The translations under genes were made by a program, and so were the position numbers. From assembly GCA_903837555.1 (NCBI GenBank), contig CAILUV010000008.1, positions 1 through 39,353 of the forward strand: a stretch of DNA of 39,353 nt, in the 5' to 3' direction. A model generated the notes under the pieces. It worked only from the letters and a program-made list of their open reading frames with translations. It searched no databases and was not told the DNA's origin. The number at the start of each line of letters is the position of its first letter. Position 1 is the first letter of the stretch. The DNA is from an uncultured Alphaproteobacteria bacterium (lineage in GTDB: Bacteria; Pseudomonadota; Alphaproteobacteria; Micropepsales; Micropepsaceae). Shown here piece by piece: positions 4,321 to 36,917 of this stretch.

Positions 4321-6372
4321 TTAGGGGCGGGGCAGCCGGAAAGCAACAAGTTCGCCGGCAACCCCGCCACCGCCAATCGCCACCACGATGTATTGGCGTC
4401 CCCTCAGCATGTAGCTCATCGGCGATCCGGTCTGGGGCGCGGCGATATAGACCGCGCCTTTTTCCTCGCCGGTGTTCTTGTCATAGCCGCGCAGCATGGC
4501 GCCGCGTGCGCCCGATGGCGTGGTGTTCATGCCCGCTTCGCCGCAGATCACCAGCGTCTTGGTCACCATCGGTCCCAAAAGGCCGGGCCGCCCGGTGCGC
4601 GGGATTTTCAGGGCCTTCAGCGCCGGATGGTTCTTGATCGCGTCGGGCGTATCCCCATGGGCGATCTGCCAGTCATGCTCGCCGCTCGCCAGGTTGATGG
4701 CGGTGATTGTGCCGTAAGGCGGCTTGAGGATAGGCAGCCCGTCGATGGTGTTCTGGCCCGAGCGGAAACCGTCCTTGCCGCTGACGCCCTGCGCATTGTT
4801 GGTGCCCGGTCCCGCGCTGGTATCGCCCATGGCGGCGGCGGGAAGCGAGGTCACACCCGCCACGCCGCGCACATACTCATTCTCGGTGAAGCGCGGGTCG
4901 CCCTTCACCACGCCCACCACATCGGCGGTGTTCTGGGTGAAGACATAGACGCGGTATGTTTCGGGATCGTAGCAGCCACCCGGCCAGTTGGTGCCGCCCT
5001 GGAAGCCCGGCGCCAGCAGCGTGCCCCAGGTGCCTTCCGGCTTGGAAAGGCTGGGCGGTTCAAACGGCCCCCCGGTCTTGTAGCGCTTGATCAGCGCCAG
5101 ACCACGCGCGTGCAGCTCCGGCGTGAAGTTCAAAATCGTGTCGGCATTGACGTCCTGCACGCCGTAAGGCGCGGGCCTGGACGGGATCGGCTGGGTCGGC
5201 GCGTACCATTCGCCCGGCACGCTGCCTGCGGGCACCGGCAGGTCGGGGATCGGCCAGACCGGCTCGCCGGTTTCGCGGTTCAGAACATATAGCCAGTTCT
5301 GCTTGCTGGGCTGGGCCAGCGCCTTGATGATTTTTCCGTTGTGGGGGATGTCGCATAGGATCGGGGCGCAAGGGATGTCGCGGTCCCACAGGCCGTGGCG
5401 CACCATCTGATAGTGCCATTTGCGTTTGCCGGTATCGATGTCGACCGCGACGATGCTTTCTCCGAACAGGCCGTCGCCGATGCGGTTGATGCCCACCGCG
5501 TCGCCGGTCGGCATCTCGATCGGCAGATAGGCGAGACCCAGTTTTTCGTCGGCGCTGGCTTGCGCCCACATGCCGGTATTGCCAGCCGCTTCGGCCTGGC
5601 CGGCTTTCAGCCAGCTTTCGTAACCCACCTGGCCCTTGCGCGGCACGGTGTGGAAAATCCATTTGCGCTTGCCGGTGCGCGCGTCATAGCCGCGGACATA
5701 ACCCTTGATGCCGCCCTTCTTGGCTGGAACGCTGCCGCCCAGGAAGGCCGCGCCCACGATCACCGTGTCGTTGGCCACCAGCGGGGTGGCGTGCAGCCCG
5801 ATGGGTTCTTTCTCCAGGTCCATCTCCTGGTCGATGTCGGTCTTCAGGTCGACCACGCCATCGACGCCGAAGCTTGTCACGCGGTCGCCGGTTTTGGCGT
5901 CCAGCGCGATCAGACGGTAACCGGCGGTGACATAGAGGATGCGCTCGGCTTTGCCGTCGGTCCAATAGGACACGCCATGGCCGGAATATTGCCGCGGCGC
6001 ATTGCGGCCGCGCGCGCCTTCATCCTCGCTGTGCATCCACAGCATCTCGCCGGTGGCCGGGTCCAGGCACACCACCGCGCGGCGTGTGCCGGCGGTGACA
6101 TACATGCGGCCCTTGATGACCAACGGCGTGCCTTCATACTGGTATTCGGGTCGTGGCCCCAGATTGTCGGTCTTGAAGCGCCAGGCGACCTGCAGCTTGC
6201 CGAAATTCTCGCCGTTGATCTGGTCCAGGGGCGCATAGCGGGTGTTGGCCGTGTCGGCGGCATAGTGGCGCCATTCGGTATCGGCGGGCGCTTGCGCCAG
6301 GGCGGGCAACTGCGTGGCGCCAAGCATGGCTGTGCCCGACAGGAGCACGTTGCGGCGTGACGGCGATGACAT
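4321..6372 (-). CDS. Exported PQQ-dependent dehydrogenase, glucose-dehydrogenase type (copy 1)
   Basis: A 683-residue eight-bladed quinoprotein. The frame is open to 6441, but ATG at 6372 has a GGGAAGG site 6 bases upstream and starts a Tat-like signal peptide (SRRNVLLSGTAMLGATQ, cleavage near ALAQA). Propeller W-motif repeats such as VVCLDPATGEMLW run through the protein. HGLWDRDIPCAPILCDIP followed by QPSKQNWLYVLNRETG matches the membrane glucose/quinate dehydrogenase group: D330 and K357 are 27 residues apart, as Asp466 and Lys493 are in E. coli Gcd. Unlike Gcd it has no N-terminal membrane domain; unlike alcohol dehydrogenases it has no adjacent-Cys ring and no CxxCH haem site. Substrate and electron acceptor are unknown. 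A leader hairpin hides its ribosome binding site. Confidence 0.9.
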   Translation of the reverse strand: MSSPSRRNVLLSGTAMLGATQLPALAQAPADTEWRHYAADTANTRYAPLDQINGENFGKLQVAWRFKTDNLGPRPEYQYEGTPLVIKGRMYVTAGTRRAVVCLDPATGEMLWMHSEDEGARGRNAPRQYSGHGVSYWTDGKAERILYVTAGYRLIALDAKTGDRVTSFGVDGVVDLKTDIDQEMDLEKEPIGLHATPLVANDTVIVGAAFLGGSVPAKKGGIKGYVRGYDARTGKRKWIFHTVPRKGQVGYESWLKAGQAEAAGNTGMWAQASADEKLGLAYLPIEMPTGDAVGINRIGDGLFGESIVAVDIDTGKRKWHYQMVRHGLWDRDIPCAPILCDIPHNGKIIKALAQPSKQNWLYVLNRETGEPVWPIPDLPVPAGSVPGEWYAPTQPIPSRPAPYGVQDVNADTILNFTPELHARGLALIKRYKTGGPFEPPSLSKPEGTWGTLLAPGFQGGTNWPGGCYDPETYRVYVFTQNTADVVGVVKGDPRFTENEYVRGVAGVTSLPAAAMGDTSAGPGTNNAQGVSGKDGFRSGQNTIDGLPILKPPYGTITAINLASGEHDWQIAHGDTPDAIKNHPALKALKIPRTGRPGLLGPMVTKTLVICGEAGMNTTPSGARGAMLRGYDKNTGEEKGAVYIAAPQTGSPMSYMLRGRQYIVVAIGGGGVAGELVAFRLPRP

Positions 6373-6378
6373 GAAAAT

Positions 6379-6413
6379 CCTTCCCAGCGGCTTTGGACAG
6401 CCTTTTGGGAAGG
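6379..6413 (-). promoter_or_regulatory. Leader hairpin sequestering the ribosome binding site of the 4321-6372 quinoprotein
   Basis: On the minus strand CCTTCCCA (6413-6406) pairs perfectly with TGGGAAGG (6386-6379); an inner GGCT/AGCC stem (6402-6399 with 6392-6389) extends the structure around a 6-base loop. The 3' arm contains the GGGAAGG Shine-Dalgarno sequence, which ends 6 bases before the ATG at 6372. The folded form should block ribosome entry, so translation may be controlled by ligand, protein or temperature. The structure is seen directly; the regulation is inferred. Confidence 0.5.
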
Positions 6414-6461
6414 ACTTTATGTACCCGCACGCGCGGGTCAACCACGCTTAAGTTGGCATGC

Positions 6462-8456
6462 TTAGGCGGGCAGGCGGAAGGCGATGAAAGCGCCGTTATA
6501 GCTGCGGCCGCCGATTGCCAGCACGATGTATTGCCGTCCGCCCAGCATGTAGGTCATGGGCGAGCCGGTCTGCTCGCCGGGGATGAAGACCGCGCCTTTT
6601 TCCTCGCCGGTCTTCTTGTCATAGGCCCGCAACCGCGCGCCCACGCGCCCGGTTTCGTCGGTATAGGTCATGGGGTCGCCGCAGATCACCAGGCTCTTGG
6701 TGGAGAGCGGGCCGACCTTGCCAATCATGCCGGTGCGCGGAATCTTCACGCCCTTGAGCAGCGGATGGTTGCGGATATTGTCCGGTGTCTCGCCATGCAC
6801 CGTCTGCCAGCTCTGGGTGCCGGTGGCCAGGTTGGTGGCAGTGATGCGCCCATAGGGCGGCTTGACCAGCGGGATGCCATCGACCGTCAGGTCGCCGGGC
6901 CGCACACCGGGCGTGTCGGCGGGCGGATTGACGTGCACCATCGAGAACTCGCCCATCTTCTTGTCGGGATTGGGGATGACGTTGCCGATGGTGAGCAGGT
7001 TGGTCTGCGAGTAGGTATAGACTGTGTGCTCGACCGGATCGTAAGCGCCGCCCGGCCAGTTGATGCCGCCGATATAGCCCGGCATGTTGATCACGCCATA
7101 GGGACCACCCTTCTTGGGCATGATCGGCGCGGTATAGACCGGACCCCACTTGTAATAGCTGGCGATCTTCAGCGCGCGTTCCTTGATCTCGGGCGTGAAG
7201 TCCACAATGTCGTCGGCGCCGAAACCCTGGCGGTCGAACGGCGGCGGCTTGGACGGGTGCGGCTGGGTTTTGGAATACCATTCGCCCGGCACGTCGCCGG
7301 CCGGCACGCGCTTTTCGGGAATCGGCCAGACCGGCTTGCCGGTCTCGCGGTCCAGGACAAACAGCCACGACTGCTTGGTCGGCTGCGCCAGCGCCTTGAT
7401 GATGCGGCCATTGTGCGGGATGTCGCAGAGGATGGCGGCGCAGGGCACGTCGTAGTCCCACAGTCCGTGATGCACCATCTGATAGTGCCAGCGGCGCTTG
7501 CCGGTCCTGGTGTCGACCGCGACGATGCTCTCGGCGAAGAGATTGTTGCCGGGGCGGTAGAAGCCCATCTGGTCGCCGGTCGGCATTTCCACGCCCAGAT
7601 AGGCCAGGCCCAGTTCTTCGTCGGCGGAAATCTGCGCCCAGGCGCCGGTGTTGCCGGCTTCCTCGGCGGTGCCGGGCGCCCAGGTGTCGTAACCGAACTC
7701 GCCCTTGTGCGGGATGGTGTGGAAAATCCACAGCCGCTTGCCGGTCTTCACGTCATAGCCGCGCACATAGCCGCGCGCATTCTTGATCACGGCGGGCGTG
7801 TTGCCGGCGGTGTGGGCCGCGCCGATGATGATCACGTCGTTGGCGATGGTGGGCGCGGTGTGCAGGCCGATATCAGCCTTTTCCGGATCCAGGTCCTGGT
7901 CGATTTCCTTTTTCAGGTCGACCATGCCGTGCACGCCGAATGCCAGGTCCATCAGGCCTGTGCGGGCGTCCAGCGCCACCATCTGGTAGCCGATGGTGAC
8001 ATAGATGATGCGTTCGATGGTGCCGTCGGTCCAGTAGCCGACGCCGCGGCCCGAAAGGCGGCGCGGGGCATTGCGCACGCGCGCGCCTTCATCGGGAGCC
8101 TTGTGCAGCCAGAGGAGTTCCCCGGTGGCTGCATCCAGGCAGACCACGTCGCGCCGCGCGCCGGCGGTGCAATAGAGCTTGCCCTTGATCAGCAGCGGCG
8201 TGCCCTGAAGGATAACTTCCGCGCGCGGACCCAGATTCTTGGTGCTGAATTCCCAGGCGACTTCCAGCTTGTTGAAATTATTTCCGTTGATCTGGTCCAG
8301 CGGCGCATGGCGGGTATGGGCGAGATCGTTGCCATAGCTGCGCCATTCGGTATCCGCGGGCGCCGTGGTTTGCGCCAGGGCTGGGATCGGCAATGCCGCT
8401 GCGGCAAGCCCGCCGATCGTGGTGGTCAGCATCAAGCGGCGGTTCAGCGCGTGCAT
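6462..8456 (-). CDS. Exported PQQ-dependent dehydrogenase, glucose-dehydrogenase type (copy 2)
   Basis: A 664-residue paralogue of the adjacent quinoprotein, colinear with it over its whole length. TTG at 8462 opens the frame, but ATG at 8456 has GGGAG 6 bases upstream and begins the signal (NRRLMLTTTIGGLAAAALP, cleavage near ALAQ). HGLWDYDVPCAAILCDIP and QPTKQSWLFVLDRETG hold the predicted catalytic D334 and K361, again 27 residues apart. No transmembrane domain, haem site or adjacent-Cys pair is seen. The two genes are 89 bases apart on the same strand, consistent with tandem duplication and later divergence; the inter-blade loops differ most, which suggests different substrates (inference). 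Confidence 0.9.
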   Translation of the reverse strand: MHALNRRLMLTTTIGGLAAAALPIPALAQTTAPADTEWRSYGNDLAHTRHAPLDQINGNNFNKLEVAWEFSTKNLGPRAEVILQGTPLLIKGKLYCTAGARRDVVCLDAATGELLWLHKAPDEGARVRNAPRRLSGRGVGYWTDGTIERIIYVTIGYQMVALDARTGLMDLAFGVHGMVDLKKEIDQDLDPEKADIGLHTAPTIANDVIIIGAAHTAGNTPAVIKNARGYVRGYDVKTGKRLWIFHTIPHKGEFGYDTWAPGTAEEAGNTGAWAQISADEELGLAYLGVEMPTGDQMGFYRPGNNLFAESIVAVDTRTGKRRWHYQMVHHGLWDYDVPCAAILCDIPHNGRIIKALAQPTKQSWLFVLDRETGKPVWPIPEKRVPAGDVPGEWYSKTQPHPSKPPPFDRQGFGADDIVDFTPEIKERALKIASYYKWGPVYTAPIMPKKGGPYGVINMPGYIGGINWPGGAYDPVEHTVYTYSQTNLLTIGNVIPNPDKKMGEFSMVHVNPPADTPGVRPGDLTVDGIPLVKPPYGRITATNLATGTQSWQTVHGETPDNIRNHPLLKGVKIPRTGMIGKVGPLSTKSLVICGDPMTYTDETGRVGARLRAYDKKTGEEKGAVFIPGEQTGSPMTYMLGGRQYIVLAIGGRSYNGAFIAFRLPA

Positions 8457-8496
8457 AAGCAACTCCCTGGGAGCTCCGGTTATTCTTGTGGTGTAT

Positions 8497-34986: not shown

Positions 34987-35066
34987 AGCTGACTATCCGT
35001 ACGGTGAGGGCAGTGGAGATTTTCTCCCCGCCCGCCCTATGATCCCTGCGGCTCAGGGGCTCTTTG

Positions 35067-35708
35067 ATGATTTCGGCATACGCCACCACGCGCTTGCGCA
35101 GGCTGGTGATCGTCCTGTGGGCGGTCGCCGGGATCGGGCTGGTGTGGCTGGGCTGGATGCTGGCCTTCCCGCCGCCGCCCGACAATACCCCGCAGGTCTT
35201 TGAAGAGCCCGGCACCACGCAGGTCGTGGAGCGCCCGAACGGCCACGCCTATCAGTATATCCGCGAGCCCAACCTGACCTGGGATGCGGCGAAGGCAGCC
35301 GCCGAAAATCTCACCCACAAGGGCCAGCGCGGCTACCTCGCCACCATGAACACCAAAGCCGAGATGGACTTTGTGATGAAGGCGCTTTTCCCCGAGCCCA
35401 CTGACGTCGTCTATCTCGGCGGACGCCAGACCGCGCCGAACGAATGGCGCTGGGTAACGGGACCGGACGCGAAGGAAGACGGCGCCAAGGGCCGCCTGTT
35501 CTGGACCGGCGCCGCCAAGGGGAACGCCCCCGACTCCGCCTTCGCCGACTGGATGTTCACCGCGTTTCAGTATGGCGGGAAATGGGATGTCTCGAAGGTC
35601 TGTTGCGTAACATTATTCTCGTACCGCAAGCGCCAGTTCAGCACCGCGCTGGGCAATGGCGATCCGGAAGAGGGTGTTGCGGGGTATCTCGTCGAGTTTG
35701 GAAAATAA
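35067..35708 (+). CDS. Membrane-anchored C-type-lectin-like domain protein
   Basis: A 213-residue protein with one N-terminal membrane helix (LVIVLWAVAGIGLVWLGWML) and a periplasmic domain resembling a C-type lectin fold: YQYIREPNLTWDAAKAAAEN, RGYLATMNTKAEMDFVMKAL, VVYLGGRQTAPNEWRWVTG, and the closing GVAGYLVEFGK. Bacterial CTLDs usually bind protein or carbohydrate ligands; the calcium-site EPN/WND motifs are not evident, so sugar binding is doubtful. A CC pair (KVCCVTLF) is the only cysteine feature. ATG at 35067 follows AGGGG. It lies 63 bases upstream of the DAAO-like gene and may be co-transcribed. Confidence 0.75.
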   Translation: MISAYATTRLRRLVIVLWAVAGIGLVWLGWMLAFPPPPDNTPQVFEEPGTTQVVERPNGHAYQYIREPNLTWDAAKAAAENLTHKGQRGYLATMNTKAEMDFVMKALFPEPTDVVYLGGRQTAPNEWRWVTGPDAKEDGAKGRLFWTGAAKGNAPDSAFADWMFTAFQYGGKWDVSKVCCVTLFSYRKRQFSTALGNGDPEEGVAGYLVEFGK

Positions 35709-35771: not shown

Positions 35772-36917
35772 ATGATCTTGGATCGTCGTCTGGCTTTGTT
35801 GGGTGGCTTGGCTGGCCTTTCCGCTTGCGCGACCAACCCACAACGCATTCCAGCAATCGATACGCCGCGTCTCATGCCAGTCCGCGCCCACATGCGGCGG
35901 GTGTTTGACATCACGGTGTGCTCGCGTCCTTTCCGCGCCGCCGGTCCGCGTCTCAATACCGAAATGCTGGGCGATACGCTGGTGGTGCACAACTACGGCC
36001 ATGGTGGGTCGGGCTGGTCGCTGTCCTGGGGCTCGGCGCAGATCGTTCTGGAAAAGGCGCTGGCGCGGGGCGACAAAAATCTCGCGGTGATCGGCTGCGG
36101 CGCGCTGGGGCTGACCACGGCGGTGCTGGCGCTCAAGATGGGTTGCAGTGTCACGCTCTATGCCAAGGAGCTGCTGCCGCTGACACGCTCGGCCCGCGCC
36201 ACCGGAAGCTGGACGCCGGATTCGCGCATCGCCCTGCGCGATTCCGCTGCTCCCGGCCTCGGCGATCTGTGGGAACAGATGGCGCGCATTTCGTGGAAAA
36301 GCTATCGCAGCTATCTGGGCCTGCCGGGCAAGCCCGTGGAATTCGGCGACCGGTACTACATCACCGATGGTTCGGGGCAGAACTATTATTCCACCCCGAA
36401 CGCGCTGGCCTTCGCCCAGTACAGCAGCCGCATCACCGACATCGTGCCGTCGGGCGTGGACATGCCGCCGGGCTCCACGCCCTTCCAGTTTCCCAATGTG
36501 CGGCGCACGGAGAACATGCTGTTCAACGTCGCCTCCTACGGCCACACGCTGATGGCCGAATTCTATGCCATGGGCGGCAAGCTGGAAGTGCGCGAGTTCC
36601 ACGAACCCGCCGAGTTCACCCGCCTGAAGCAGAAAGTGGTGATCAACTGCACCGGCTATGGCGCGCGCAGCCTTTGGAAGGACGAAAGCCTCATTCCGGT
36701 GCGCGGCCAGATCGCCTGGCTGGCGCCGCAGCCCGAGGTTACCTACGGCGTCAATTATCGCGGCGTGCAGATGATCCCGCGCAGCGACGGCATCGTGATC
36801 CAGATGCTGGAGGGCGGCGACATGCGCGGCTACAACGAGGCCAATGAGGTGGTGGACCGCGCCGAGGCCGCCGAGGGCATCGCCCGCATCGCGGAACTGT
36901 ACACGCGCTTCCAATAA
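35772..36917 (+). CDS. Circularly permuted D-amino-acid-oxidase-like FAD lipoprotein
   Basis: A 381-residue FAD protein. ATG at 35772 follows GAGG and begins a lipoprotein signal with twin arginines (LDRRLALLGGLAGLSAC, mature Cys19). The segment that ends ordinary DAAO proteins comes first here: SRPFRAAGPRL (residues 51-61) and VVHNYGHGGSGWSLSWG (71-87). Only then follows the FAD Rossmann motif AVIGCGALGLTTAVLA (GxGxxG at 108-113), then TGSWTPDSR, VVINCTGYGARSL and VRGQIAWLAP. Y325 and Y329 keep the i/i+4 spacing of pig DAAO Tyr224/Tyr228, and R52 corresponds to Arg283. The protein stops where the usual C-terminal segment would begin. Likely an envelope oxidase making an imino acid and H2O2; substrate unproven. 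Confidence 0.85.
   Translation: MILDRRLALLGGLAGLSACATNPQRIPAIDTPRLMPVRAHMRRVFDITVCSRPFRAAGPRLNTEMLGDTLVVHNYGHGGSGWSLSWGSAQIVLEKALARGDKNLAVIGCGALGLTTAVLALKMGCSVTLYAKELLPLTRSARATGSWTPDSRIALRDSAAPGLGDLWEQMARISWKSYRSYLGLPGKPVEFGDRYYITDGSGQNYYSTPNALAFAQYSSRITDIVPSGVDMPPGSTPFQFPNVRRTENMLFNVASYGHTLMAEFYAMGGKLEVREFHEPAEFTRLKQKVVINCTGYGARSLWKDESLIPVRGQIAWLAPQPEVTYGVNYRGVQMIPRSDGIVIQMLEGGDMRGYNEANEVVDRAEAAEGIARIAELYTRFQ

Follow-up and report, generated by a model that had tools for sequence, protein, structure and literature searches.

Does the gene at positions 35772 to 36917 of this window, by which we mean the whole 39,353-nucleotide stretch of DNA analyzed, encode a natural circular permutant of the D-amino-acid oxidase (DAAO) fold, and if so, where would such a protein act and on what? 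The open reading frame (ORF), on the plus strand, runs uninterrupted from ATG to stop and encodes a 381-residue protein, P0001. The first-pass annotation placed RPFRAAGPRL and HNYGHGGSGW ahead of GCGALG, and we confirm them at residues 52–61, 73–82, and 108–113, respectively, so that the order RPxR, HNYGHGG, GxGxxG, substrate domain departs from that of canonical DAAOs. The annotation erred in ending the chain after the MIPRSDG/Gly-rich strand: IPRSDG lies at residues 335–340 and is followed by about 40 further residues, including one helix (363–377), before the stop codon. The features of the gene are as follows.

35772..36917, plus strand: whole gene for the circularly permuted DAAO-fold FAD protein P0001 (381 residues; Pfam DAO, 69.4 bits).
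35772..35828, plus strand: predicted twin-arginine signal DRRLAL and lipobox LSAC, residues 1–19, with Cys19 the likely lipidation site (sequence; family trait; TatC encoded in the genome).
35829..35876, plus strand: linker from anchor to folded domain, residues 20–35 (low pLDDT, 51–57, across residues 11–30).
35877..36065, plus strand: moved segment, residues 36–98, C-terminal in canonical DAAO and N-terminal here (Pfam DAO 308–351 of 353; 7ct4 residues 320–379; DSSP of the model).
35925..35936, plus strand: RPFR, residues 52–55, with Arg52 equivalent to DAAO Arg283 (invariant in 78 aligned members; 2du8 match of 60–89 to 290–323).
35988..36008, plus strand: HNYGHGG, residues 73–79, with Gly79 equivalent to DAAO Gly313 (pig DAAO 301–326 aligned without gaps on 67–92; invariant in the 78).
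36066..36077, plus strand: joint, residues 99–102, from the old C terminus (helix 85–97) to the old N terminus (strand 103–107) (best start in the rotation scan 96, next 101; block pLDDT of 98 on either side).
36078..36914, plus strand: canonical N-terminal part, residues 103–381, with GCGALG at 108–113 (VIA-align, model 102–379 to pig DAAO 1–269).

Comparison with proteins of known structure bears directly on the order of the chain. A phmmer search of the PDB with native P0001 matched the fungal (Rasamsonia) DAAO 7ct4 in two stretches that are out of order, query residues 101–322 to chain residues 23–247 (24.0 bits) and 49–94 to 325–370 (30.3 bits). When the two halves of the query were swapped, a single stretch resulted, from query 2–345 to chain 24–370, at 54.0 bits; the total number of bits is nearly unchanged by the swap, and what changes is that two matches merge into one. 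A profile of 78 aligned family members (see below) likewise gave two stretches on 7ct4 (47.0 and 51.0 bits), the moved part matching residues 320–379 at 51.0 bits, and in none of the 17 DAAO or D-aspartate oxidase rows matched by this profile did the best stretch span both parts.

The same pattern is seen with the Pfam DAO family (PF01266), which all 78 aligned members match. Native P0001 covers profile positions 2–295 of 353 (69.4 bits, above the cut-off), the swapped protein covers 2–351 (77.7 bits), and residues 36–100 alone match positions 308–351 with an E value of 5.5e-4, below the family cut-off. As a control, we also rotated residues 36–381 five positions at a time and compared every rotation with seven canonical DAAOs, running 20 shuffles per pair. 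The summed best local score rose from 826 in the native order to 1257 when the chain was started at residue 96, with the rotated order ahead in seven of seven comparisons, two of which have as their optimum a broad plateau starting at residue 96. Best local scores of rotated P0001 lay between 135 and 234, compared with a shuffle maximum of 56. Taken together, the match of the isolated segment to Pfam, the profile match to 7ct4, and the rotation scores relative to shuffles lead us to regard a chance origin as excluded.

We then turn to the predicted structure. AlphaFold2, given the 78 aligned members, returned a model of P0001 with a mean pLDDT of 92.0 and a pTM of 0.88, and the ten-residue blocks across residues 41–110, joint included, have pLDDT values of 96–98. 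DSSP assigns strands at 44–55, 63–66, and 69–73 and a helix at 85–97 to the moved segment, and this order of elements across residues 44–97 fits the C-terminal end of DAAO. Searched with Foldseek, the model retrieved D-aspartate or D-amino-acid oxidases in all of its top 33 rows (best E value, 5.9e-14); with VIA-align, the top 17 rows were DAAO or D-aspartate oxidase, 6rkf having a Z score of 20.9. Model residues 102–379 superpose on residues 1–269 of the 339 in pig DAAO 1kif with a Z score of 19.7 and an rmsd of 2.8 Å over 249 aligned residues. The final ≈70 residues of DAAO and model residues 36–98 are left unmatched in these alignments, as a permutation predicts; because both programs apparently align sequentially, their output alone cannot show a permutation, only what a permutation leaves unmatched. 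Folded alone, residues 36–100 gave a poor prediction (pLDDT 61.6) that counts neither for nor against the permutation, and the presumed spatial place of the moved segment is taken from the whole model and from homology. The register of Arg52 on Arg283 is taken in part from the human DAAO sequence.

The permutation itself is thus evident in the primary sequence comparisons and supported by the model, in which the alignment of residues ≈100–379 to DAAO ≈1–269 stops where a permutation predicts. In this rearrangement, the last ≈60 residues of the ancestral enzyme, comprising the RPxR strand, the HNYGHGG strand, and the closing helix, came to lie at the start of the protein, where some five residues connect them to the β strand that opens the FAD domain; the new termini fall in what had been the loop leading from the final helix of the substrate domain into the RPxR strand.

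How widely does this order occur? A scan of 84,980 species genomes yielded at least 588 candidate stretches, at least 574 of them confirmed. The best 80 loci were retained and, combined with 20 loci from relatives, gave a family set of at least 91 distinct proteins, the window protein included; the permuted order is present in 91 of 91. (The alignment used above holds 78 of these 91; the other 13 are cut, near-duplicate, or oddly started.) Among the relatives, 17 of 61 genomes have matches, its own genome counted. Within the class, at least 14 of 289 genomes give a match at E < 1e-80 that extends along most of the profile, and most of the at least 221 class matches tallied are confined to the Rossmann part and resemble other FAD proteins. 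In the Acidobacteriota, to which the Granulicella locus belongs, 11 of 119 genomes gave matches at 1e-12, and in ten of these the match extended across most of the profile. More divergent permuted members are found on two rhizobial plasmids, in Nonomuraea, and in an alphaproteobacterium (L117, with a Sec-like signal). A search of a phage collection gave no match.

These data also bear on whether the order could be an artefact of a misassembled or frameshifted contig. The genome is in 101 contigs, which leaves room for such an error in principle, but the frame is full-length, and at least 91 distinct proteins, among them those of named isolates such as Acetobacter, Caulobacter segnis, and Granulicella and of a Kozakia plasmid, have the same order. 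We therefore reject this explanation, which we consider vanishingly improbable, and with it the rearranged assembly that the first-pass annotation had named as a possible source of the order.

A second alternative is that the N-terminal segment arose by duplication or was acquired independently as a module, for example through fusion with a second DAAO gene, part of the core having been lost. Circular permutations are thought to arise through duplication and subsequent trimming, and an intermediate of this kind may have existed. In the present-day proteins, however, each DAAO part occurs once: with duplicates counted, 141 module-bearing ORFs in 145 loci comprise 134 permuted, 7 canonical, and, at the threshold used, none with two modules, and the nearly complete Pfam DAO coverage of the swapped protein (2–351 of 353) likewise argues against an added module. 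We regard this reading as very improbable, and the earlier description of the protein as a permutation rather than a fusion or duplication holds. Circular permutation is accordingly the reading carried forward here, upheld by the out-of-order PDB matches, the gain in Pfam coverage on swapping, the rotation scan, the at least 91 proteins of the same order, and the model.

Removal of identical proteins leaves 113 permuted and 7 canonical sequences. Of these 120, 61 (54 permuted and all 7 canonical) went into a tree for which swapping of the halves brought the sequences into a common register, and a branch with an SH-aLRT of 98 separates the permuted proteins from the canonical ones. The same split, with an SH-aLRT of 99, was recovered from 53 permuted and 3 canonical proteins after five long rows, four of them canonical, were dropped. 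Both trees are unrooted by any outgroup, have long branches and seven canonical sequences at most, none eukaryotic, and come from a short search, and the split is consistent with a single permutation event. Canonical-order DAAOs occur in related genomes, namely L101, from the same genus, and L118; L101 used as a query at E 1e-15 found no canonical DAAO in 249 genomes of the phylum, a set without a positive control, so that this negative carries no weight.

In the N terminus of P0001, MILDRRLALLGGLAGLSAC, twin arginines are followed by a short run of hydrophobic residues and then by a lipobox. Because the twin arginines of DRRLAL precede the lipobox LSAC, the signal looks Tat rather than Sec by the general motif rules for Tat lipoproteins. 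By regular expression, a Tat-type signal (RR plus hydrophobic stretch) is present in 103 of the 113 distinct permuted members, and among these 103, 79 have a lipobox, 21 an AxA site, and 3 neither. The ten negatives are mixed. L006 and L125 have RR by eye, and three others (L020, L048, and L080) are truncated at the ends of their contigs. L082 lacks RR, the signal of L117 resembles the Sec type, and none is visible in L123, L124, or L143. A looser RR test was passed by one of the seven canonical sequences, and the Pfam TAT_signal family matches one of the 78 aligned members at an E value of 0.001. The genome encodes TatC (G000:C28, 240.8 bits). The envelope lipoprotein proposed at first reading is thus supported, by sequence, as a predicted Tat-type family trait.

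Tat exports folded, cofactor-loaded proteins, so a predicted Tat signal fits an FAD enzyme. Most likely, the new N terminus with its twin-arginine lipoprotein signal would allow the protein to fold in the cytoplasm with FAD, leave through Tat, and be tethered to the envelope; the motifs are plain, and export would follow from them. That some permuted branches are signal-less suggests that permutation and export were separate events.

The active site offers a view of the likely substrate. In human DAAO, the substrate carboxylate is bound by Arg283 and Tyr228 and the amine by Gly313, and Tyr224 sits on a mobile lid loop, residues 216–228 (PMC6279847). The equivalents of Arg283 and Gly313, Arg52 and Gly79, are invariant in the 78 aligned members. 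The Tyr228 column, however, holds Gln333 in P0001 and no tyrosine in any of the 12 main-clade rows shown, where Gln, Asn, Ser, Glu, or Ile is found; divergent permuted members have Tyr in eight of ten and His in two of ten, and tyrosine is found in pig DAAO and four of seven canonical rows (Phe in two, Cys in one). Of the key residues that the first-pass annotation considered kept, then, the arginine stands and the tyrosine pair does not: Tyr325 and Tyr329 of P0001 align with pig Asn212 and Thr216, not with Tyr224 and Tyr228. The lid loop is also shorter here than in DAAO. A longer stretch also takes the place of the LGGT strand end of DAAO.

By alignment, then, the active site has been remodelled. 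The substrate likely carries a carboxylate, held by Arg52 in the scheme that we favor, with oxidation of an amine or amino-acid-like compound and the electrons handed on; simple D-amino acids are not assured, since loss of the Tyr228 equivalent suggests some other substrate. With the column occupied by residues other than tyrosine in both P0001 and the 12 main-clade rows, D-amino-acid oxidase activity cannot be assumed, and P0001 probably works in the periplasm as an FAD-dependent dehydrogenase or oxidase that acts on an amino-acid-like compound.

To consider where the electrons might go, we looked for CxxCH motifs on the same strand, up to 450 bp downstream, in 116 rows (109 permuted and 7 canonical, the flank of four further permuted rows being too short to score). 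The motif occurs in 17 of the 116 and is absent from 92 of the 109 permuted rows. Sixteen of the 17 make up exactly one FastTree subclade, a label that needs two changes on the tree; the remaining row, L093, lies outside the subclade with its motif in a 441-residue frame and was set aside as chance. In the 61-protein tree, seven cytochrome-linked members form a clade with support of 100 inside a group of nine that includes P0001 (support 97). All three of the downstream proteins tested match the Pfam cytochrome family PF13442, and the neighbor of the permuted gene in Kozakia is annotated as cytochrome c.

A second permuted copy is present in the same genome (L018, G000:C32:21107-22213; wider locus, L146) and belongs to the cytochrome-linked subclade. 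It is 50% identical to P0001. A gene for a secreted cytochrome c lies ≈15 bp downstream of it, followed at some distance by a Rid-family gene, and on its upstream side is an amidohydrolase gene in the opposite orientation. The amidohydrolase and Rid-family genes would fit amino-acid chemistry, as circumstantial evidence.

Next to the P0001 gene itself there is no cytochrome c gene; its neighbors are ordinary chromosomal genes, and its own subclade yielded no conserved operon. The close relatives L147 and L148 share synteny, with a short-chain dehydrogenase gene upstream and Sel1, pseudouridine-synthase-like, and TadA-like genes downstream. Clustering of neighbors across 76 loci found no gene near a majority of family members.

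Since a c-type cytochrome gene lies directly downstream and its product is the likely acceptor, the cytochrome-linked branch is probably a respiratory dehydrogenase. For P0001, the acceptor may instead be an unlinked cytochrome, a quinone, or O2. The last of these leads to the chief alternative, which keeps the permuted fold and export and differs in the final step, making P0001 a genuine H2O2-forming oxidase whose substrates would be D-amino acids or glycine, supplied for example by peptidoglycan turnover, and which would use O2 without any cytochrome. The invariant Arg283 and Gly313 equivalents speak for this, as does the lack of a cytochrome c gene beside P0001 and of CxxCH downstream of 92 of 109 permuted genes, but Gln333 in the Tyr228 column, the non-tyrosine residues in 12 of 12 main-clade rows, and the cytochrome c partner of the sister subclade all weigh against it, and we judge it rather unlikely. 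In our preferred reading, to which we attach considerable confidence, P0001 would be a natural circular permutant of the DAAO fold, exported by Tat and tethered to the envelope, that oxidizes an amine or amino-acid-like substrate and passes the electrons on.

A fuller history can be sketched tentatively, and we would put it forward with less than even confidence. One ancient permutation would have given rise to a distinct bacterial lineage of the DAAO fold and, by shifting the N terminus away from the first strand of the FAD-binding part onto a loop at the surface, would have permitted a Tat/lipoprotein anchor. The exported branch would then have remodelled its active site, losing Tyr228, and one lineage would have become a respiratory dehydrogenase with its own c-type cytochrome, feeding periplasmic electron transport instead of making H2O2.

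Compared with known DAAOs and D-aspartate oxidases (EC 1.4.3.3 and 1.4.3.1; pig 1kif, human 2du8 and 6rkf, and Rasamsonia 7ct4), P0001 shares GxGxxG, RPxR with the carboxylate arginine, HNYGHGG, and the fold of residues ≈100–379, whereas it differs in its permuted order, its Tat-type lipoprotein signal, Gln for Tyr228, and the longer stretch replacing the LGGT end. It has the Pfam DAO match in common with the group that includes the glycine oxidase ThiO, and glycine oxidases superpose on the model with Z scores of ≈15, but P0001 scores 25.3 bits against a cut-off of 250.8 for the ThiO family (NCBIfam TIGR02352). Cytochrome-c-linked periplasmic dehydrogenases exist in acetic acid bacteria and other alphaproteobacteria. 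Sixteen permuted members resemble them, by analogy, in pairing a predicted exported FAD protein with a cytochrome gene directly downstream, although the P0001 gene has no cytochrome neighbor and the FAD protein here has a DAAO fold. The rhizobial-plasmid relatives WSH67949.1 and WP_304495191.1 share the permuted order but have no signal that we could see, retain Tyr in the Tyr228 column, and are flanked by genes for an FAD-binding oxidoreductase and a thiamine-pyrophosphate enzyme.

At the level of titles and abstracts, and for part of the literature on DAAO, bacterial DAAO, and circularly permuted flavoproteins, no such permutant is described. The words FAD, flavin, oxidase, and oxidoreductase are absent from a paper on a circular-permutation search method (PMC12667903), as is "permut" from passages of PMC4699246. 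Proteins released from chocolate agar by Asaia bogorensis include, by name only, a "D-amino acid oxidase," A0A060QKK3 (PMC12502724).

The proteins described here thus form a conserved branch of the DAAO fold whose chain is circularly permuted and most of whose members are apparently exported. If correct, it offers a clean case of a fold surviving rewiring of its chain, in a textbook flavoenzyme, with the permutant conserved in Alphaproteobacteria and Acidobacteriota and a divergent relative in at least one actinomycete. The permutant has been hidden in annotation because the Pfam DAO match reports the core and the records seen say "FAD-dependent oxidoreductase." The cytochrome-c-linked subclade predicts a periplasmic DAAO-fold dehydrogenase and hints at a DAAO fold rewired for respiration outside the cytoplasm; the family also provides a ready-made permuted scaffold for DAAO engineering.

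Several further observations concern the neighborhoods of the permuted genes. In the window, a gene at 35064-35708 (plus strand), whose product has a hydrophobic stretch at the N terminus and matches a C-type lectin below threshold, sits between the short-chain dehydrogenase gene and the permuted gene and is not called at that position in G036 or G015 (L147 and L148). At 4321-8462 (minus strand) are two adjacent PQQ-type dehydrogenase genes with RR-like N termini, the second below NCBIfam cut-offs. On the rhizobial plasmids, L124:2470-6696 and L143:2369-6696 encode an FAD-binding oxidoreductase, a signal-less permuted protein, and a thiamine-pyrophosphate enzyme, a three-gene set that may be biosynthetic. 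L114 (G316:C1:2962242-2963366) has a reported internal TGA and is possibly a decaying copy. At L030:2250-9839, an amine-oxidase-type gene and a cytochrome c gene lie upstream, and downstream are genes for an MFS transporter and a 798-residue exported protein, perhaps a TonB receptor, a neighborhood that may give a clue to the substrate. In 4 of 76 loci, a related MFS transporter gene lies in the same orientation no more than 1.5 kb away, the one at L030:6179-7402 starting where the permuted gene ends.
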